Assembly (NCBI RefSeq): GCF_007860175.1
Contig: NZ_SJPX01000003.1
Coordinates: forward strand, 1,065,380 to 1,129,379
Length of the DNA stretch: 64,000 nucleotides
DNA from: Rubripirellula reticaptiva
GTDB taxonomy: Bacteria; Planctomycetota; Planctomycetia; Pirellulales; Pirellulaceae
Direction of reading: 5' to 3'
The notes under the pieces were generated by a model, which ran no database searches, was not told the DNA's origin, and worked only from the letters and a program-made list of their open reading frames with translations. This document shows, piece after piece, positions 1,972 through 11,911 of the stretch. Positions within the stretch are counted from its first letter, which is position 1. Each line of letters begins with the position of its first letter. The translations under genes and the position numbers were made by a program.

Positions 1972-2802
1972 CTAGATCGGCAGGTAGGTTGTTGCTTTGC
2001 CGATGATCTTTCGATCAAACTTGACGTTCAGGTTCATGGTGGATTCGGCACCACCTAGAAACAAAGCGCCGTCGCTCTGCATGACTCGGTGTACTTTGTC
2101 GAGAATTTGCTTTTTGGTATCAACGGAGAAGTAGATCAAGACATTGCGCAAGAAGACGATATCCATCTTTGGAAGCATGGAAGGCCAGGGCTCGATCAGG
2201 TTTAACGCTTTGAACTCGACCATTCTTCGAATCTCATCACTGATACGCCAATGCATTCCATCGCGTTGAAAATACTTCAAGAGCATCGGCATCGGCAAAC
2301 CACGATTGATTTCGGTTTGGGTGTAGATGCCCGATTGAGCTTTCTGGAGAATCTGCTTTGACAAGTCGGTTGCAGTCAATCGAACACGCCAACCGGCAAG
2401 CTCGGGAAAGTGTTCTCGGATCAGCATCGCGATCGAGTACACCTCTTGGCCGCTTGAACAAGCATTGGACCAGACGTTCAGGACACGTTCTTTCGAACGG
2501 CGAGAAATTAAGCTTGGAATCACTTCTTCCCGAAGCGCGTTGAACGGGTGCAAATCGCGAAAGAAGCTAGATTCGTTTGTCGTCATCGCGTCGACGACTT
2601 CGTCGACAAGAGCGACCGCACCTGGCTTTTGCAAAGCCTGAACGAGTTCATCGAGAGACGCCATCCCGTGGGCACGCGCCACCGGCAATAGTCGAGACTC
2701 AACCAAGTAGTTCTTTCCAGGATCAATGACGATCGCGGACTTGCGGACAATGAGCTGCGAAATGTAATCGAAGCTCGGTGTCGTGGCTGTTTCTATTGAC
2801 AT
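1972..2802 (-). CDS. cheR: Chemotaxis protein methyltransferase CheR
   Basis: Transfers methyl groups from S-adenosylmethionine to glutamates of chemoreceptors, opposing CheB. The all-helical N-terminal domain (about 1-75) ends at MTTNESSFFRD, and the SAM-binding domain contains the glycine-rich loop NVWSNACSSGQEVYSIAM. Later family motifs include DLSKQIL and FLRNVLIYF. The start at 2802 gives a normal 276 residues and overlaps cheB by 10 bases, implying translational coupling. A longer reading frame to 2979 is rejected because it covers the end of cheB with an arginine-rich, non-conserved tail. No C-terminal TPR or other fusion is present. Confidence 0.93.
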   Translation of the reverse strand: MSIETATTPSFDYISQLIVRKSAIVIDPGKNYLVESRLLPVARAHGMASLDELVQALQKPGAVALVDEVVDAMTTNESSFFRDLHPFNALREEVIPSLISRRSKERVLNVWSNACSSGQEVYSIAMLIREHFPELAGWRVRLTATDLSKQILQKAQSGIYTQTEINRGLPMPMLLKYFQRDGMHWRISDEIRRMVEFKALNLIEPWPSMLPKMDIVFLRNVLIYFSVDTKKQILDKVHRVMQSDGALFLGGAESTMNLNVKFDRKIIGKATTYLPI

Positions 2803-3884
2803 GCCATCTGTCTCCCAATTGCGGTGCGGCCCAGTGCAGAGCGTCGTTGGATTTCTGCAGCGATTCGTTCGAGCGGTAGTGTCGCGTCTTCGATTCCGAG
2901 TCTTGAGACTGCGCCTGGCATGCCCCATACGACTGAAGTTGCTTGGTCTTGAATGATTACTTTGCCGCCCGCTTGGCAAACAGCTTCGGAACCTCGAGCT
3001 CCGTCCTGGCCCATTCCGGTCAAAACAACGGTCAAAAGGTTCGGTCCGTAGATTTCAGATGCGGATCGAAAGAGTACATCGACGGCAGGTCGGCACGAGT
3101 TCTCGGGGGTTTCCTGGTCGAGCTTCGTCTTGATCTCCGTGCCCACTCTTTGAATTCGCATGTGAAAATCACCGGGCGCGATCCAAACACCCCCGGGTTG
3201 AATCGTATCGCCAGGCGATGCTTCAAAAACCGACAGCGCTGATAGGTGATTCAGTCGGTCAGCAAGGTGTTTCGTAAACACAGGCGGCATGTGTTGAACG
3301 ATCAAGACCGGGACCGGAAAGTCGGCCGATAATTGCGTCAACACAGTTTGCAATGCATTCGGTCCACCGGTCGAGCTGCCAATGGCAACTGCGTCGACGC
3401 GAGCCGGAAGGCCCACGGGACGACTCGGTGTTCTTCGGGGTAGCGATGGCGCGGTTGCAGCCGGTGCGGCCGCAACATGCGGGCAAAACGCCTTGATCCG
3501 TGGAACCAATTCGTCGCGAACTTGCTGCATCGCTGCGGTGACACTGCCGACATTCGCAGGCTTGGTCACGTAGTCGTTGGCCCCCTTGGCGAGCGCGTCC
3601 ATTGTTGCCACGGCGCCACGCTGAGTCAGCGTGCTGAACATGATGACGGGAAGTTTCGGGTAGAGCTTCCGCAGCTCGACCAACGTGGTGATGCCGTCCA
3701 TTTCGGGCATCTCCATATCCAGCGTCAAGATATCCGGGTTCAGTTGCGGAATCTTTGCTAAGGCGATCTTTCCATTTGCCGCGATTCCACAGACTTCGAT
3801 CTGGGGATCCGCCGCAAGTGAATCGGAAAGGAGTCGCCGAATGACGGTTGAGTCATCGACGACGAGTACTCGAATTTTACGCAC
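2793..3884 (-). CDS. cheB: Protein-glutamate methylesterase/deamidase CheB
   Basis: Removes methyl groups from receptor glutamates and deamidates glutamines; activated by phosphorylation from CheA. Residues 1-125 form a receiver domain with the DD pair (VVDDSTVIRR), phospho-acceptor Asp in LTLDMEMPEMDG and KP in YVTKPANVG. A proline/alanine linker (about 140-160) leads to the methylesterase domain with Ser (AIGSSTGGPNAL), His (VQHMPPVFTKHL) and Asp (GMGQDGARG) of the catalytic triad. Total 363 residues is normal. It starts 4 bases after the stop codon of cheY and overlaps cheR. No sign of decay. Confidence 0.95.
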   Translation of the reverse strand: MRKIRVLVVDDSTVIRRLLSDSLAADPQIEVCGIAANGKIALAKIPQLNPDILTLDMEMPEMDGITTLVELRKLYPKLPVIMFSTLTQRGAVATMDALAKGANDYVTKPANVGSVTAAMQQVRDELVPRIKAFCPHVAAAPAATAPSLPRRTPSRPVGLPARVDAVAIGSSTGGPNALQTVLTQLSADFPVPVLIVQHMPPVFTKHLADRLNHLSALSVFEASPGDTIQPGGVWIAPGDFHMRIQRVGTEIKTKLDQETPENSCRPAVDVLFRSASEIYGPNLLTVVLTGMGQDGARGSEAVCQAGGKVIIQDQATSVVWGMPGAVSRLGIEDATLPLERIAAEIQRRSALGRTAIGRQMACQ

Positions 3885-3888
3885 TTGA

Positions 3889-4257
3889 CTAAGCTCCTAC
3901 GCCGAGGATTTGCAGCTTCTCGGTGATGGTTGCTTCGTCGAATGGCTTCATCACGTACTCATTGGCCCCGGCGATGAATGCTTGCGCCATCCGTTCCATT
4001 TCGGTTTCGGTCGTGACCATCATGATCGCCACGTCGGAGTACTTGTCCTGTGCGCGGACAGCTTTGATCAAGTCGATCCCGTTCATGACAGGCATGTTCC
4101 AGTCGATCAGAAGCACATCGGGCGTCTCAATTTGCTCGAGTTTCTCCAAAGCATCAACGCCATGTTCCGCTTCGTGAACTTCGTATCCCAAGTTGCGCAT
4201 CATGGTCCCGACGATTCGTCGGATTGCGCGGGAGTCGTCTACAACAAGAGCTCGCAT
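3889..4257 (-). CDS. cheY: Chemotaxis response regulator CheY
   Basis: Single-domain receiver of 122 residues that carries phosphoryl groups from CheA to the motor or acts as a phosphate sink. Conserved residues are DD in VVDDSRAIRR, the phospho-acceptor Asp in LLIDWNMPVMNG, Thr in MMVTTETE and Lys in YVMKPF. The start at 4257 has AGGA upstream and leaves no spare N-terminus; a longer frame to 4407 adds non-conserved sequence and is rejected. It lies between the receptor gene and cheB. A second CheY is at 11008 in the divergent arm; which of the two drives the motor cannot be told from sequence. Confidence 0.92.
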   Translation of the reverse strand: MRALVVDDSRAIRRIVGTMMRNLGYEVHEAEHGVDALEKLEQIETPDVLLIDWNMPVMNGIDLIKAVRAQDKYSDVAIMMVTTETEMERMAQAFIAGANEYVMKPFDEATITEKLQILGVGA

Positions 4258-4374
4258 GATGCGATTCCTACTTTTTAAAAGTACAGGTAAGCTGATTTGG
4301 TTGGTTTGGTTGCGCGGCGAATCCATCATTGGCGCGCCGTTGCGATTGAATCGGGTTGGTCGAATGCCAAGTGG

Positions 4375-4427: not shown

Positions 4428-7157
4428 CTAAACCGACTGGTACGAGCCGATCGGAGCGGTTGCCAAGACGGGGGAACCGATTGGATTGCTTTGCAAATTG
4501 CCGCTCGATCCGTTCCCGCTGCTCTTGAATCGAGATACTAAATCTTGCAATTCGGCAGCCATGCGGCTGAGTTCACCCGCAGCTTGCTGGCTATTCTCAG
4601 CACCTCGCGTGGTGCTTTCCGCTGCGGTCGCGACCGAGGTGATGTTCTGAGCAATTTCGCTGGCTCCGCGAGACGCTTCGGCGACGTTGCGTCCCATTTC
4701 GTTCGCGGTTGCAGTTTGCTCTTCAACGGCACTGGCAATGGTGCTGCTGATGTCGTTGATCTGGTTGATCACTTCACTGATCTCGCGGATTGCATCGACA
4801 GCTCCTTGAGTGTCGCCTTGGATCGCATCAATCTTTTTGCTGATGTCTTCGGTTGCCTTGGCGGTTTCCTTCGCCAGTTCCTTGACTTCGTTTGCAACCA
4901 CCGCGAATCCCTTACCAGCTTCTCCGGCACGAGCCGCTTCGATCGTCGCGTTCAAAGCCAACAAGTTGGTTTGTTCGGCGATCGAAGTGATCACTTTGAC
5001 AACCTTGCCAATTTCGACACTGCTTTCGCCGAGCTTGGCGATCGTGCAGTTCGTGTTGTCGGCAACCGAAACGGCTTGCAGCGACACGCGTGCCGCGTCG
5101 GTTGCGTTCTTGGCGATTTCGCGAATGGCGGCGTTCAATTCTTCAACCCCAGTCGAAACGGTTTGCACATTCATGCTGACCTGTTCCGACGCCGCCGAGA
5201 CAACGTTGGCCTGCGATGAAGTCTCTTCGGCGTTGCCGCTCATCTGCATGCTGACGGCCGACAGTTCTTCCGATGCCCCCGCCAAAGCGGTCGCGTTTTC
5301 ACCGATCGTGTTCATCGCATCGCGAAGTTCCGATGCCCTTTGACTTTCACGTTTGGCATTCTCGATCGTCTCGAATTCGGCCAGCTTAAGTTCGGTAACG
5401 TCGGTAACGATTTTGATAACCTTTTGGACACGTCCCATCTCGTCCTTGACTGGAGAATAAACGGACTGCAACCAAGCAGCACTGCCATCCTTACGTATCC
5501 GTCGAAAGGTGTCCGAAATGATTTTTCCATCCGCCAAGTTACGCCAAAAGTCAGAATAGTCACTCGAGCTTGCCTCGGCTGGCTCGACAAACATGCGGTG
5601 ATGGTTACCGACAATTTCGCTCAAGTGATATCCCATCGCGTTGAGGAAGTTCGAGTTCGCGGTAATGATCGTTCCGTCTCTCTCAAACTCAATGTAGGCA
5701 TATGCCTGATCGATCGCGTTCAAAACGCCAGCGGCGTTTTGCCGTTCAAGTTCAGCGTCAGTGATATCATATCGCACACCGATGTACTTTCGAGGCTTTC
5801 CATTGTCGCCCATAACCGGAGCGATGCATGCATCGACGTAATACGGTGTTCCGTCCTTGGCCAAGTTTTTGATCTTGCCACGGAAGATCTTTCCGCGACC
5901 AATGGTCGACCACAATTCCTTGAATACTTCCTTTGGCATGTCGGGATGGCGCGTCGTGTTGTGCGGCTTGCCAATCAACTCGCTTCGGCTGTACTTAGAG
6001 ACTTCAATGAACTTTTCATTGATCGCAATGATGTCACCCTTCAAGTCCGATTCCGAAACGATGCTTGTTAGATTGATGATTTCCTCGCGAACCTTCAGTT
6101 CCTCGGCTCGCTCCATGATCTCGTGCTTTAAAGTGCTGTCATGCTTGATGGCCATCACTTTGTAAGGCTTGCCTGTTGCGTCCAGGACTGGGTTGAAGCA
6201 TCCCGTGAACCAGATTTCCTCGCCTGTCTTGGTGATGCGTTTGCATTCACCGCATTGAAACGATCCCTTCCTCATGTGGTCCCACAATTCCTTCTCTGCA
6301 TCCGCCGCCTGTCGGGTCGGCTCAATGAGCATGCTGTGGTTCTTCCCACGAAGATCGTCGATCGAGTAGCCCATAAGGTCAAGGAACTGATCATTGGCCG
6401 TTAAAATTTTTCCATCGAGATCGAACTCGATCAAGCAAACGGATCGGCTTACCGCCGCTAACGCATAGGCGTATTCGTTGTTCTTCTCTTCTTGCTTGGC
6501 AATTCCCTTCCGCAACCAAATCGTGAAACCCACAATTGACGAAAGTAGAAACACTCCGAGCGACTTCAATAAAAATGATCTTGATTGAGTGGTAGCAGTC
6601 GCCAAGTTCTGGTCGATCTCCTCAATCTCCTTGTTCCGGGAAACGGTCTCCTTGATCGCAGCGAAGTGATCACCAAAGTTCTGTTCCAAATCGTGAAGCA
6701 ATAGCTTCGCTACTGCCTCGCTGTCTTGGCGTTTAGCAGCGGGGATCAGCTCTTTCTCAACGACATTAAAGAATTCACGGGCGGCGACTTGCGAACGATC
6801 CAGAAACTCTCGTTGAAGTTGCGGATCCTCGATTGTGTCCGTCCAATTCTTAAGCGAAGCATTGTATTCGCTTTTGAGACGCGAGAATTCAGACTCGATG
6901 AACGCAATTTCATCCGGCGACGTTGTGTCGCGAAGCTTCCGTGAAAGCCAAGACGCCTCGATAATGAAAGCTGGCGGTGGCAAGATGTCTGCCATCAAAT
7001 TCTTGTCGGCCACGATCTTGTTGTAATGTGGCCCGTCGATCTTGACAGTGCTGAGCGTCGAGAAAGCGACAGCTCCGAAGATCAAGAATCCGGTTGCGAA
7101 AACTGCCGACAGCATTAGCAATTTTGCGTTCATTGAAAGGTTCTTAAATTTGGTCAC
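4428..7157 (-). CDS. Membrane chemoreceptor with three PAS domains (methyl-accepting chemotaxis protein)
   Basis: A 909-residue receptor that signals to CheA/CheW. Transmembrane helix 1 is at about 12-35, then a helical periplasmic sensor (36-193), transmembrane helix 2 (194-216), and three consecutive PAS domains (about 225-340, 350-470, 475-595), each with the G-Y/R-S, G-K-x-x-x-x-R and PAC-like ends. The signalling hairpin tip is [19 protein letters not shown], with a downstream helical bundle to about 880. No HAMP domain is visible; the PAS array replaces it. There is no NWETF-like CheR docking tail. The start is GTG with AGGGG nine bases upstream; an internal ATG at 7133 is the alternative. 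The sensed ligand is unknown, and three cytosolic PAS domains suggest redox or small-molecule sensing. Confidence 0.92.
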
Positions 7158-7226: not shown

Positions 7227-7664
7227 TCACTCGCGAATGGCATCTTTGGTTTTCAGCACTAATAGCAGGCCGTCCTTGAGTTTGTAAGCTCCTTCGATCA
7301 GCTCACGTGTCAGTCCTTGAAGTGTGTCAGGTGCGGTCTCGAACTCGTCTTTCGACACTTCGATAACATCGCCGATGGCATCGACTAACAGGCTGACAGC
7401 ACCGTCGTCGGATCTTACGACGACGTTCATTGGACGCTTGTCGTCATCCCGATCGGGATAACCGAGACGTTTACGCATATCGATCGCCGTTACGATCTGG
7501 CCACGCAGATTGATGAGCCCACTGACCGACGACGGTGCCAGTGGCACGTGTGTCATTTCTTGATAACGAATGACTTCTTGAACCATGTGCGCGTCCACAC
7601 CAAAGATGTGGTTGCCCAAAAAGAATGTGCAGAGTTGTCGGGTAGGTGCGACCATGGAATTCAT
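7227..7664 (-). CDS. cheW: Chemotaxis coupling protein CheW
   Basis: Scaffold that bridges receptors and CheA. The 145-residue protein is a single CheW-like SH3 domain pair: LCTFFLGNHIFGVDAHMVQEVI at the start, the diagnostic GLINLRGQIVTAIDMRKRLG in the middle, and LVDAIGDVIEVSKDEFE towards the end. Located directly between cheA and the membrane receptor gene on the same strand, with 57- and 69-base gaps, so it is probably in the same transcript. Confidence 0.94.
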   Translation of the reverse strand: MNSMVAPTRQLCTFFLGNHIFGVDAHMVQEVIRYQEMTHVPLAPSSVSGLINLRGQIVTAIDMRKRLGYPDRDDDKRPMNVVVRSDDGAVSLLVDAIGDVIEVSKDEFETAPDTLQGLTRELIEGAYKLKDGLLLVLKTKDAIRE

Positions 7665-7721: not shown

Positions 7722-9977
7722 CTAACGACTAATGATGGCCGGTAAATCGATCAGGTCCGTAACTTGGCCTAGGATTACGGTCGACATGGCACGTCCGGAA
7801 TTGCATGCTCTCTTATCGATCTCAATCGTCTGTTCGACGATGTCGATGATCCGATCGACAACGATTCCGATTGCTCGATCGTCGTCGTTGTAAACAATCA
7901 CGTCGATGAATGGATCACTGTGGTCTCGCGAACTCGGAACACCCATCAGATCCCCAAGTCGAACGAGCGACAGAATCTCGCCGCGGTATTGAACGACTTC
8001 GCGGTTATCTGTGTGTTCGATCTTGGAGGTGTCGATCTTCTCTAACCGTGTGACTTGAGCCAATTCGATCGCGAATCGGTTTGACTTTCCGACTCCGGCC
8101 ACCAGCAGAGTGTGTCGGTCTTTGTTGAGTGTTTGCGACTTTTCTTGGCTATCTTGTAAGTGTGTCCTACCCGCGTCGGTGATGACGTTTGCCGAATGAG
8201 CAACGCCCATCACATCAAGAATTAGCGCAACCTGGCCGTCACCCATGATGGTCGTGCCGGAATAGACGGGAACGTTTTTGAGTTGACTACTTAGCGGTTT
8301 GACGACGATTTCTTCGCTGTCGTTGATTCGATCGACGACCAACCCGAATTGACGGTCGTCGGCTCGCAAGACGACAATGTTCAATGCATCAAAATCGGTT
8401 TCGGTTTCAACCTTGAGCTGTTCACGCAAGTAAACCAGCGGCAACAAGCGTCCACGAAGTCGATAGACGGGAGCCGATTGGATCCATTCGATGCTGCTGG
8501 ATACTTGGTCGCCATCAAGGCGGAGCAGTTCCAACAAGTTGACTTGCGGAATGGCGTAACGATCGTTGTCACAGGTCACAATGAGCGCGGGTATGATCGC
8601 CAGCGTTAAAGGGATCTTGATCTTGATCGTGGTGCCCTTACCTTGCTGGCTCTGCAGATCGACCGTTCCACCGATTTTTTCAATGTTGGTTTTGACAACA
8701 TCCATGCCGACGCCACGACCAGAAACATTGCTGACTTTTTCGGCGGTTGAGAAGCCTGGCAAGAAGATCAAATTGCCCGCGTCGCGGTCGCTCATTTTCG
8801 CGAGCTGTTCTTGCGTCATCAAGCCTTTTTCGAGTGCCTTGGCTTTCACGCGTTCGGCGTTGATCCCGGCGCCGTCATCGCAGATTTCGATGTTGACTTG
8901 ACCACCCTCGTGATAGGCACGCAGTGTCAAACATCCTTCGGCCTGTTTGCCGACTTGTGTACGAACTTCGGGACGCTCGATTCCGTGGTCGACGGTATTG
9001 CGAACCAAGTGAGTCAGGGGGTCCTTGATCGCTTCGATGATCGTTTTGTCGAGTTCCGTTTCCTTGCCTTGCATTTCGATGCGAACTTGCTTTTCGCAAA
9101 TTCCGGCAAGGTCTCGAACTAGGCGAGGGAACTTGCTCCAGACGTTTCCGATCGGCTGCATGCGTGTCTTCATCACGCTTTCTTGCAATTCGCTAGTGAT
9201 CAGATTGAGTCGCTGAGATGTGCGATGCAGTTCACTTTCGATATTGCCGCTCGCAAACTGTAGAATCTGGTTGCGGGCCAGTACCAGTTCGCCGACTCCG
9301 TTCATCAACTTGTCGAGCAAAGAAACATCGACACGAATGGTGCTCTCGGCCGCGCTGATGTCGCTATTGACGCTCGCTTTGGCTGGCTCTGGAGTCGCGT
9401 CTTGAGAGATAGATTGTGCCGCCATCGATTTGACGGTGGGCTGCACATTGTTCTCGGCGAGAGCGGCGTCCGTCCGCCGATCAGTTGTTTTGGGCTCTAT
9501 CTTTGGGTTGCTTTTAGCTGGCGATTTTTTCTTCGCTGATTCGCTTGGCAATAGAATTTCGTGGAGCGTCATCAGGGACTCGGCGAGTGAGTCGCTGCCG
9601 CATTCGGTTTCGGTGCCATCAGTCTCGATCGCCGAAAGCAGTTCGCGAACCTTGTCGACAGTCGTTAGCAAGGCGTTGCCGATTTCAGATCCCATCGGTA
9701 GCGTTCCGCTACGCACGTCGCCGAGAAGGTTTTCAGCGACGTGGGACAAACGTTCGAGCTTGCTAAAGCCGAGGAATCCGGCTGTGCCTTTGATCGTATG
9801 GATGCTGCGGAAGACACCGTTGATCAACTGCTCCGATGCGGGCTCACTTTCGAGCGACAACAAGTCTCGCTCGAGTTGTTCGAGATTCTCATAGCTTTCG
9901 ATGAAGAACTCGCGGAGCGCTTCATCGTCCAGGCCGTTCACCGATGACTTAGCAGAATCGGGAGCAGCTTCGTTCAT
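7722..9977 (-). CDS. cheA: Chemotaxis histidine kinase CheA (main part; reading frame continues upstream to a TGA)
   Basis: Autophosphorylates on receptor signals and passes phosphate to CheY and CheB. The domains are HPt (about 18-125; phospho-His60 in SIHTIKGTAGF), a low-complexity linker, dimerisation P3 (210-270), ATPase P4 (LVRNTVDHGIE N-box, GRGVGMDVVK), a first CheW-like P5 (about 465-600) and a second CheW-like domain (about 630-745). Two C-terminal CheW-like units are more than in a classical CheA. The ATG at 9977 lacks a proper ribosome-binding site (nearest GGGAG is about 17 bases upstream). The same frame is open for 46 more codons, of lysine/alanine-rich linker type, back to a TGA at 10118-10116, beyond which a second HPt ORF continues in frame. 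The functional start or the integrity of the gene is therefore uncertain. Confidence 0.93.
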   Translation of the reverse strand: MNEAAPDSAKSSVNGLDDEALREFFIESYENLEQLERDLLSLESEPASEQLINGVFRSIHTIKGTAGFLGFSKLERLSHVAENLLGDVRSGTLPMGSEIGNALLTTVDKVRELLSAIETDGTETECGSDSLAESLMTLHEILLPSESAKKKSPAKSNPKIEPKTTDRRTDAALAENNVQPTVKSMAAQSISQDATPEPAKASVNSDISAAESTIRVDVSLLDKLMNGVGELVLARNQILQFASGNIESELHRTSQRLNLITSELQESVMKTRMQPIGNVWSKFPRLVRDLAGICEKQVRIEMQGKETELDKTIIEAIKDPLTHLVRNTVDHGIERPEVRTQVGKQAEGCLTLRAYHEGGQVNIEICDDGAGINAERVKAKALEKGLMTQEQLAKMSDRDAGNLIFLPGFSTAEKVSNVSGRGVGMDVVKTNIEKIGGTVDLQSQQGKGTTIKIKIPLTLAIIPALIVTCDNDRYAIPQVNLLELLRLDGDQVSSSIEWIQSAPVYRLRGRLLPLVYLREQLKVETETDFDALNIVVLRADDRQFGLVVDRINDSEEIVVKPLSSQLKNVPVYSGTTIMGDGQVALILDVMGVAHSANVITDAGRTHLQDSQEKSQTLNKDRHTLLVAGVGKSNRFAIELAQVTRLEKIDTSKIEHTDNREVVQYRGEILSLVRLGDLMGVPSSRDHSDPFIDVIVYNDDDRAIGIVVDRIIDIVEQTIEIDKRACNSGRAMSTVILGQVTDLIDLPAIISR

Positions 9978-10115
9978 GCCTTGAACGCATGTCGCTCCCG
10001 CAGCTTCTATTGCTGCGATCAGTGCTTCGGCTTCGGCGAGAGAGTTGTCAGCAGATTTTTCTGCCGCGGCGACTTTCTTCTTTGCTGGCGTGCGCTTCTT
10101 CGCTGTTCTCTTCGG
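9978..10115 (-). other. Open linker-coding stretch joining the HPt ORF to cheA
   Basis: These 138 bases (46 codons) lie between the TGA of the upstream HPt ORF and the cheA ATG and are fully open in the same frame. The translation begins PKRTAKKRTPAKKKVAAAEK and continues as an Ala/Glu-rich segment. Its composition matches an inter-domain linker and the Lys/Ala/Ser repeats just before the TGA. This shows that the two ORFs were, or are, one coding sequence. Confidence 0.75.
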
Positions 10116-10640
10116 TCAAGTTTTGGTTGGTTTTGATGCTTTTGATGCTTTTGATGCTTTTGATGCTTTTGATGCTTTTGATGCTTTTGATGCTTTTGAT
10201 GCTTTTGATGCTTTTGATGCGGAAACGGCAAGCGGTTTGGCAGCAACGGTCGGATTTCCCGCGGCGACGGAACTGAGCGAGTTAGAGAGTTCACTCACGT
10301 CGACTTCGTTCGAGTTCATTACGTTTTCGAGCAGCCCACGTAGTTGGTCGGCGGCCTTCAGCATCATGTCAACGATGGCTTTCGTCGGCACCAACTGTCG
10401 TTCACGCATCAAGTTGAGAACGTTTTCGAGACTGTGCGCCAGTTCGTTGATCGACGTTAAGGATAGAAAGCCGGCCGCACCCTTGATCGAGTGAACCGCG
10501 CGGAACACCGTATTGACGAGGGCGACGTCTATATCGGCACCGCCCTCTTCAATCGTAAGAAGCTGGTTTTCGATGTCTGAAAGATGTTCCGTCGATTCAA
10601 CGACGAACTCTTGAATGATTTCTTGATCCTCAAATACCAC
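10116..10640 (-). CDS. HPt domain ORF, N-terminal part of a split CheA
   Basis: 174 residues comprising one histidine phosphotransfer domain (about 1-110; phospho-His50 in AVHSIKGAAGF), a short alanine-rich linker and a tail of KAS tripeptide repeats ending at TGA. The sequence around His50 closely parallels the HPt of the following cheA, so this looks like a duplicated P1 domain. The TGA at 10118-10116 is followed by C, the stop context known to be most leaky in several organisms. Possible readings are a genuine separate HPt protein, a nonsense mutation in a two-HPt CheA, programmed readthrough, or a sequencing error. Stop-codon spacing (141 bases to the cheA ATG) is exactly divisible by three. 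Confidence 0.8.
   Translation of the reverse strand: MVFEDQEIIQEFVVESTEHLSDIENQLLTIEEGGADIDVALVNTVFRAVHSIKGAAGFLSLTSINELAHSLENVLNLMRERQLVPTKAIVDMMLKAADQLRGLLENVMNSNEVDVSELSNSLSSVAAGNPTVAAKPLAVSASKASKASKASKASKASKASKASKASKASKPTKT
10131..10220. repeat. Nine-base tandem repeat (ten copies) in HPt/CheA linker
   Basis: Ten consecutive exact copies of TTTTGATGC on the plus strand, encoding the tripeptide KAS repeated on the minus strand. Because the unit is three codons, gain or loss of copies changes linker length without shifting the frame. The repeat lies 13 bases upstream (in coding sense) of the TGA that separates the HPt ORF from cheA. It also opens long artefactual frames on both strands. 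Confidence 0.97.
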
Positions 10641-11007
10641 TGGGTACCCCCGTACCGTTGTTTCCAGATGGTTGTGCCCATCGCCATTTTCTCGGTTCGA
10701 ATACGAAATGTCCGAGATGAACTACTGTCAAATTTGCAACAGGGTTAAGAAAAGACAAACGGAAAGCGTTCAGCTTGCGGATCTTACGGAAATATCCGAT
10801 TCTTCATTGTTGATTGATTGGGTTCGCTTTGACCCACGTACTTTTTGTCGGTGTTACACAGATCAAGTGTTATGGTTTGACGGGCGAGCAAATTGGGAAC
10901 CAATGTTTTCAAGTGTTTTGGCAGCAGACACGCAACTTTAGAGAGCTACTCGTTCCACGACCGAAATCCGTTTTTCAAAATTGAACAGAATCTAGTAATC
11001 GAGTTTT
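10641..11007. promoter_or_regulatory. Divergent control region between the two che arms
   Basis: 367 bases separating the HPt/cheA operon (minus) from the cheY-cheX-receptor arm (plus). An 89-codon plus-strand frame (10672-10941) has no family resemblance and no clear ribosome-binding site, so the region is best read as regulatory. The location requires promoters for both arms, but no exact sigma-54 or sigma-28 site could be recognised. Confidence 0.5.
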
Positions 11008-11382
11008 ATGATGAGCCAAAAGGTATTGTTGGTTGATGATTCGGGTGTGATGAGGAAGATCATCCTTCGTGCGCTCAATGCGATCGGAATTTCGGATGTC
11101 GTGGAAGCAGCCGACGGTGCGCAGGCACTCGCGTTGTTTGGCGAAGAAAGCTTTCAATTGGTATTGACGGATTGGAATATGCCAAACATGAACGGCCTTG
11201 AATTACTAAAGGCGATTCGATCGAGCGGATCAACGACTCCGGTGATCATGATCACGACGGAATCGGAGCAGGGGCGAGTTTTAGAGGCGATTCAGGCCGG
11301 CGCCAGCAACTACTTGGTCAAACCATTTGAGCAAGAAACTTTAATGGACAAGCTCCAAAAATACGTTGCGGTCTCCGCGTAA
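11008..11382 (+). CDS. cheY: CheY-like response regulator (second copy)
   Basis: 124-residue stand-alone receiver domain. Conserved features are DD in LLVDDSGVMRKI, phospho-acceptor Asp in LTDWNMPNMNG, TTE in MITTESEQGR and Lys in YLVKPFEQE. The latter half (GLELLKAIR, AGASNYLVKPF) is typical of chemotaxis CheYs. It is the first gene of the plus-strand arm, 40-50 bases before a CheX gene, an arrangement that suggests a regulator plus its dedicated phosphatase. Two ATGs (11008 and 11011) are adjacent; either can be the start. Confidence 0.92.
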   Translation: MMSQKVLLVDDSGVMRKIILRALNAIGISDVVEAADGAQALALFGEESFQLVLTDWNMPNMNGLELLKAIRSSGSTTPVIMITTESEQGRVLEAIQAGASNYLVKPFEQETLMDKLQKYVAVSA

Positions 11383-11434
11383 CGGGTTGCTCCGATCAGC
11401 CGAAAACTCATCCAGCGATTAAATGGGGCAAACC

Positions 11435-11911
11435 ATGAATGACGAAGTAGTCAAAGCGTTCAAAGACTCGACGACCAGCGTTTTTGAAACAATGCTCGGC
11501 AGTGAAGTCACCAGCGGCGAAGCAACACACAACCATCAACTCGCTGCTCGCGGTGTTAGCGGAATCATCGGATTGACCGGCTCGATTTCGGGCGACGTCA
11601 TCATTTGCTTTGACGAGAAAACCGCAATAGCGGCCACTGCAGTGCTTCTAGGGATGGAGCCGGACGGATTGGACGGTGACGTGATCGATGCGGTCGGAGA
11701 ATTGACGAACATGATCGCCGGAAATGCCAAAGGGCGTCTCGAAAAATACGATTTAAGTTTGGCGCTGCCGACGGTGATTACCGGTACTGGACACCGCATC
11801 GGATTTAAATCGGGAATCCAGCCCGTCAGTCTTCCCTTCATTTCTCAGTGGGGTAACTTTAGCATCGAATTAGTATTGGCTGAGGTTAAGGCACTGCAGT
11901 TCGGTTGCTAG
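11435..11911 (+). CDS. cheX: CheX-like chemotaxis phosphatase (second copy)
   Basis: About 158 residues with the CheX pattern: an N-terminal helix (NDEVVKAFKDSTTSVFETML), a central helix with the catalytic E-x-x-N signature in VGELTNMIAGN, and a C-terminal strand (FSIELVLAEV). Expected to dephosphorylate CheY-P, probably the product of the gene just upstream. An ATG at 11423 is also possible, but the one at 11435 has GGGG six bases upstream and matches the family's usual N-terminus. It is a paralogue of the gene at 1473-1919, so each arm of the cluster carries one CheX. Confidence 0.82.
   Translation: MNDEVVKAFKDSTTSVFETMLGSEVTSGEATHNHQLAARGVSGIIGLTGSISGDVIICFDEKTAIAATAVLLGMEPDGLDGDVIDAVGELTNMIAGNAKGRLEKYDLSLALPTVITGTGHRIGFKSGIQPVSLPFISQWGNFSIELVLAEVKALQFGC

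Follow-up and report, generated by a model that had tools for sequence, protein, structure and literature searches.

The window analysed here, a stretch of 64,000 nucleotides from Rubripirellula reticaptiva, contains a cluster of chemotaxis genes in which a short ORF for a histidine phosphotransfer domain (HPt1) precedes cheA on the minus strand. The genes of this cluster have affinities to two kinds of che cluster in related genomes, which we refer to as type-I and type-II (labels coined in this analysis). The features of the locus, in window coordinates, are:

1972 to 2979, minus strand: cheR, type-II affinity, named by reading of the translation
2793 to 3884, minus strand: cheB, type-II affinity, named by reading of the translation
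from 3889, in the block 1972 to 4332, minus strand: second cheY, type-II affinity, named by reading of the translation
4428 to 7157, minus strand: chemoreceptor, type-II affinity, named by reading of the translation
7227 to 7664, minus strand: cheW (Pfam CheW), type-II affinity
ATG 9977 to stop at 7722, minus strand: cheA, 751 amino acids (Pfam domains), type-II affinity
9978 to 10115, minus strand: linker, 46 open codons past the TGA
10116 to 10118, minus strand: in-frame TGA with C as the next base, within a Lys/Ala-rich linker
10131 to 10220, minus strand: ten perfect copies of a 9-bp repeat coding Ala-Ser-Lys, in the linker
GTG 10640 to TGA 10118-10116, minus strand: HPt1 ORF, 174 amino acids (ORF reading, Pfam Hpt)
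11008 to 11382, plus strand: cheY, a single receiver (Pfam Response_reg) divergent from HPt1, closest to the type-I locus of genome G021
11423 to 11911, plus strand: cheX, CheY phosphatase family (Pfam CheX, 89.9 bits), closest to the type-I locus of G021

The HPt1 ORF and cheA lie in one frame, with 141 bases from the first base of the TGA to the first base of ATG 9977, and all 46 codons between them are open; the coordinates of the initial annotation, which had described a CheA apparently split by this TGA into an HPt half and a main half, hold. Pfam finds Hpt in the short ORF (62.5 bits) and again in residues 20-111 of cheA (52.5 bits; HPt2). Each of the two domains has its histidine, in HSIKG at residue 50 of the HPt1 ORF and in HTIKG at residue 60 counted from the cheA ATG (281 in the joint frame), and we take these motifs to be the sites of the phosphorylatable His. 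The 751-residue ORF is a CheA in its own right, with Hpt, H-kinase_dim, HATPase_c and CheW all over the Pfam cut-offs, in the order HPt2, dimerisation, HATPase and two CheW domains, and with matches to the N, G1 and G2 box patterns. As read, the TGA separates two HPts that share a frame, and the locus would encode a tandem-HPt CheA only if the stop were read through.

The open frame past the TGA is by itself weak evidence of coding, and at least 46 open codons follow 5524 of 24260 stops in 444 kb, made up of the window and 19 sampled 20-kb stretches of the genome. The composition of the linker is more unusual. All 14 residues directly past the TGA are K, R, T, A or P, continuing the Lys/Ala-rich linker before the stop, and such 14-codon windows number 19 among 886,240. 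The case for a once-coding linker is made by this composition together with the homology to the linker of G021 described below. Twelve bases before the TGA ends the Ala-Ser-Lys repeat, a perfect 90 bp that the initial annotation had not mentioned. The G021 linker does not have this repeat, which may be a recent expansion that altered the length of the linker and not its frame.

The upstream and downstream halves of the locus have different closest relatives. In G021, a genome of the same genus with a type-I cluster, the homologues of HPt1, CheY and CheX share 77%, 83% and 61% identity with those of the window, and the divergent order of cheX-cheY and cheA is common to both. The product of the HPt1 ORF is homologous to the N-terminal part of type-I CheAs, and the GTG of the ORF aligns with the ATG of the G021 CheA. 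The downstream genes are instead closest to the type-II cluster of G096 (cheA 62%, CheW 74%, receptor 64%, CheY 66%, CheB 67%, CheR 64%), which has the same gene order, whereas G021 matches them at only 30% (CheW), 43% over parts of the protein (receptor), 43% (CheB), 35% (CheR) and 49% (cheA body, over part of its length). The evidence that puts the upstream CheX and CheY with type-I comes mainly from G021 and from gene order, because the window cheX is only 30% identical to that of G033, the other type-I locus, and the upstream CheY (69% to G033) is 74% identical to a cheY of G002, of the same genus, that lies 3.7 kb upstream of a type-II cheA. The window cheX has 39% and 43% identity to the cheX genes at loci L094 and L097 (G122 and G105), where cheY and cheX lie upstream of a two-HPt cheA on the same strand; the order in the window is divergent.

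The change of affinity falls within the linker between the two HPts. A block of 27 codons, within the open codons past the TGA taken together with ATG 9977, has a counterpart in G021 and in none of the other ORFs compared, and the junction lies past this block and before HPt2. The block ends with ATG 9977, which is aligned to an internal Met of the G021 CheA, the last Met of its linker block. The locus thus looks like a chimera, by sequence affinity, with CheX, CheY, HPt1 and the linker on the type-I side and HPt2-CheA onward on the type-II side; the first reading of the sequence, sound as to the frame, was incomplete in that it saw neither this chimera nor the alignment of the ATG with an internal Met. 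The homology of the linker to G021 is at the protein level only, with no significant blastn match. Outside the cluster, no synteny with G021 was seen when about 20 kb to the left and window positions 1-26000 were compared with about 59 kb of G021, the sole match being one far ORF at 34%; replacement in place is therefore no more than a possibility. No type-I cheA body was found elsewhere in the genome, which has a single H-kinase_dim match, nor a type-I cheB: the best match to the G021 CheB is the window CheB (44%), and the other six are weaker (at most 34%).

Phylogenetic trees agree with this mosaic. In a quick tree of 82 HPt rows with long branches flagged, window HPt1 falls among the HPts of single-HPt, type-I-kind CheAs (33 rows, SH-aLRT 90), within a wider set that includes four type-II HPt1s (37 rows, SH-aLRT 98), and HPt2 falls among the second HPts of type-II and allied single HPts (26 rows, SH-aLRT 100). 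Excluded from this tree were duplicate loci and other HPt proteins of the window's own genome, further loci that were duplicates or short, and the diverged loci from the same genus (L012-L017, L019, L021-L023 and L030-L040). The CheA body belongs to a type-II set (24 rows, support 95), apart from a 29-row set with G021, in a quick tree of 74 rows that was likewise flagged for long branches and made without own copies, duplicates and L030-L040. A careful tree was built from 35 hand-picked rows. Forcing HPt1 to join the HPt1s of the close kin of the body costs 67 and 80 log units and is rejected (p-AU 1.75e-9 and 7.57e-12), for groups named after the HPt tree had been seen. The fork uniting HPt1 with type-I rows alone has a support of 90 in the 82-row tree and 93/89 in the 35-row tree, and is not starred.

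To survey the frame in relatives, we searched the family with the HPt and linker read through the stop, which matched 76 of 241 genomes (own included) at an E value of 1e-20. Among the matches listed, most of which cover the HPt only, the window alone holds a stop, and 22 others (a hand count) pass the position of the TGA. A search with cheA matched 35 of 241 genomes at 1e-190, with 44 rows listed (own included in both counts), and loci were fetched for the best matches only. Among the loci fetched, two HPts lie in one open frame at 19 distinct loci in 18 genomes (24 rows, of which L111, L112, L115, L117 and L118 repeat loci already counted). The CheA body continues in the same frame at 18 of them, and the nineteenth (L130 in G035) runs off its contig; a stop like that of the window is absent from all 19. 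Three of the tandem loci (L082, L083 and L100) were scanned with Pfam and each has two Hpt stretches, against one in each of the other three proteins scanned; other close relatives, such as G002, G117, G129 and G118, have a single HPt. An order-level search (396 genomes, 1e-250) gave matches in eight genomes, two of them new. Two Rhodopirellula records are among the matches, with 52% identity over the best segment. At the level of these relatives, the position reads as sense, which the initial annotation had proposed as a sign of mutation or error.

The linker past the TGA bears the mark of protein-level constraint. The 27-codon block of the window differs from that of G021 by 16.0 synonymous and 10.0 nonsynonymous changes (pS 0.79, pN 0.16), much as HPt1 does (pS 0.76, pN 0.15), and 7 changes fall at first, 3 at second and 16 at third codon positions; this estimate comes from one pair and from a block picked since it is conserved. 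We simulated the block with constraint set to 0.10 and asked how often no more than the observed eight amino-acid differences arise. For 0.75 and 1.0 substitutions per site per branch, the probabilities are 0.09 and 0.008 if 20% of the window branch was unconstrained, and 0.70 and 0.39 with zero unconstrained time; for 1.5 substitutions even zero unconstrained time gives 0.076, a poor fit. Under this model, more than about 20% of the branch spent unconstrained is disfavoured. Constraint on the block implies either that the stop is young or that the stretch is still translated, and so the linker past the TGA appears to have been coding until recently, or still to be. All of this constraint may predate the junction, and it is then no proof of a joint frame translated as one chain; a junction would in any case fall in frame with a chance of 1/3.

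The mosaic affinity of the genes, the frame shared across the stop, the open tandem frames of relatives and the constraint past the TGA together suggest a chimeric che operon that once encoded a two-HPt CheA and was then split by a lineage-specific TGA, an explanation that we consider probable. We infer the order of events as follows. An upstream half (CheX, CheY, HPt1 and the linker to about ATG 9977) would have come from a type-I cluster of the genus and a downstream half (HPt2-CheA body, CheW, receptor, CheY, CheB and CheR) from type-II clusters, the two meeting in frame inside the inter-HPt linker. The joint gene was probably once a two-HPt CheA of about 970 residues, and the lineage would then have acquired the TGA in the linker of that gene. 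Two separate products are now most likely made: a free HPt1 protein of 174 residues, and a CheA, started at ATG 9977 or close to it, that would keep HPt2 and all core domains as the only CheA of the genome. Using HPt2, the kinase half is probably still functional, and HPt1 would persist as a free phosphotransfer protein that could be phosphorylated at most in trans. With a single CheA dimerisation domain in a genome that also has four flagellin matches and one strong FliG match, the window CheA probably serves flagellar chemotaxis.

Among the four options listed by the initial annotation (programmed readthrough, a strain-specific nonsense mutation, a genuine split and an assembly error), a nonsense change specific to the lineage fits best. 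Readthrough, programmed or tolerated, would at some rate yield a complete CheA with both HPts in addition to free HPt1, with the long form as a source of kinase, and is consistent with the common frame, with the constraint past the TGA, with this being the only CheA detected and with the lack of a Shine-Dalgarno (SD) core at ATG 9977. The stop context would also suit it. TGA is indeed followed by C, a weak stop context in E. coli, and TGAC is the rarest TGA context in the window and 19 sampled 20-kb stretches (8 of 59 TGA stops of long ORFs). However, the stop is not conserved among relatives, none of those examined having it while 19 tandem-HPt frames are open, and the constraint may predate the TGA; nothing speaks positively for readthrough, which we regard as improbable. 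The absence of a good ribosome-binding site at the cheA ATG, correctly reported before, is uninformative, and we rejected it as evidence of readthrough, since SD cores are uncommon in this genome, where 28 of the 210 first ATGs in long ORFs have one, versus 67 of 1573 internal ATGs. Planctomycetes are also named among the phyla with small fractions of SD genes (PMC5397173), and with SD cores rare here initiation at ATG 9977 without one is plausible. Selenocysteine at the TGA was rejected as well, as no tRNA-Sec in the genome scores over the gathering threshold: the best RF01852 match has 44.2 bits (threshold 47) and is called tRNA-Ser by ARAGORN, and 8 of 11 sub-threshold hits sit at ordinary tRNA loci. 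The TGA is most probably a nonsense change of recent origin and not a conserved signal for recoding.

The two halves might also never have been one chain, the HPt1 fragment having been left as its own gene at the joining and cheA starting from the linker Met. HPt1 is intact and constrained, ATG 9977 is available (the sole other in-frame ATG, GTG or TTG in the first 75 codons past the TGA is GTG 9941), and separate in-operon HPt genes are documented (PMC10782961). Yet Lys/Ala-rich linker sequence flanks the TGA on either side and stays in frame with HPt2, and two HPts per chain are common among the type-II relatives, so that such a stable split seems rather unlikely. No sigma-70-like promoter was found in the linker or elsewhere in 9700-11100, which is weak evidence, and no terminator lies between the halves on the cheA strand; three terminator-like sites are all on the opposite strand. 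A sequencing or assembly error would leave the gene intact. One codon decides the matter, and the perfect 90-bp repeat 12 bases upstream could disturb assembly, but the TGA lies outside the repeat and not in a homopolymer, collapse of the repeat would shift the sequence by nines without making this codon, and substitution errors in a consensus are presumably rare; we consider an error highly improbable.

The split two-HPt CheA favoured here can be compared with several known systems. Type-II two-HPt CheAs of the same family (G096:C308, G041:C471, G029:C468 and others) have the same HPt-HPt-dimerisation-HATPase-CheW-CheW order, and in G096 and G095 the two-HPt cheA is followed, as in the window, by cheW, receptor, cheY, cheB and cheR; they differ in having one open frame, an HPt1 of another lineage and no 27-codon block. 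The type-I single-HPt CheAs with a C-terminal receiver (G021:C2 and G033:C29) share HPt1 and the divergent cheY and cheX upstream, and among type-I clusters the linker block occurs in G021 only. The window differs from these in its body, CheW, CheB and CheR, which are of another lineage, and its CheA does not have the receiver domain that Pfam finds in the G021 CheA. Two or more Hpt domains occur in 18% of CheAs in a survey of CheA architectures, which also describes bipartite CheAs with a separate in-operon HPt gene, as in the window, and a remaining CheA without Hpt (PMC10782961); the window CheA keeps HPt2 and does not fit that definition. In Rhodobacter sphaeroides, the functions of CheA are split over two polypeptides and the His of CheA3 is phosphorylated by CheA4 (PMC6829392), and by analogy HPt1 may be phosphorylated in trans. 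CheA4 is described there without an Hpt, whereas in the window one stop breaks an otherwise continuous frame. Hik36/Hik43 (PilL-N/PilL-C) of Synechocystis are also a split CheA, with genes distant on the genome (PMC7656254). The window differs from these systems in keeping an HPt in the main part, in a frame broken by one stop and in its origin from two clusters. An open-access full-text search for Planctomycetes or Rhodopirellula with chemotaxis or CheA gave no such locus or chimera recognisable from titles and the starts of abstracts.

Multi-HPt and bipartite CheAs are known, but how they come about can seldom be followed. Here, an apparent recombination junction in the inter-HPt linker would have swapped most of a chemosensory module and retained the HPt, CheY and CheX of the other system, and what looks like a fresh split came after it. 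A tentative extension, possible and not one that we favour, is that the output cassette (HPt1, CheY and CheX) was kept while the input and adaptation module (kinase with its own HPt2, CheW, receptor, CheB, CheR and a second CheY) came from another system, the TGA then making HPt1 diffusible. If so, one kinase would serve two CheYs, a different one through each of HPt1 and HPt2, and the locus would be a chemotaxis pathway rewired in nature and seen at the point of gene fission. Whether HPt-CheY pairs stay together when the kinase is swapped, and whether a freed HPt stays in use, are testable questions.

At 10641-10655, directly upstream of the HPt1 start, the sequence is almost the same as that preceding the cheA start of G021 (L018, just upstream of base 898), a possible leader or regulatory element. 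Locus L008 (G000:C3:304013-304483) encodes a stand-alone HPt protein in an open frame of 250 amino acids with 36% identity to HPt1, and a similar protein is present in G021 (L042). In another genome of the genus, the type-I cheA at 1495-2610 of G014:C59 (L028) is broken, with HPt and body in different frames around the linker; its likeness to the G015 body stops within the ATPase domain, after which the residues are CheR-like by reading. Here a cheA of the genus has decayed independently of the window locus.
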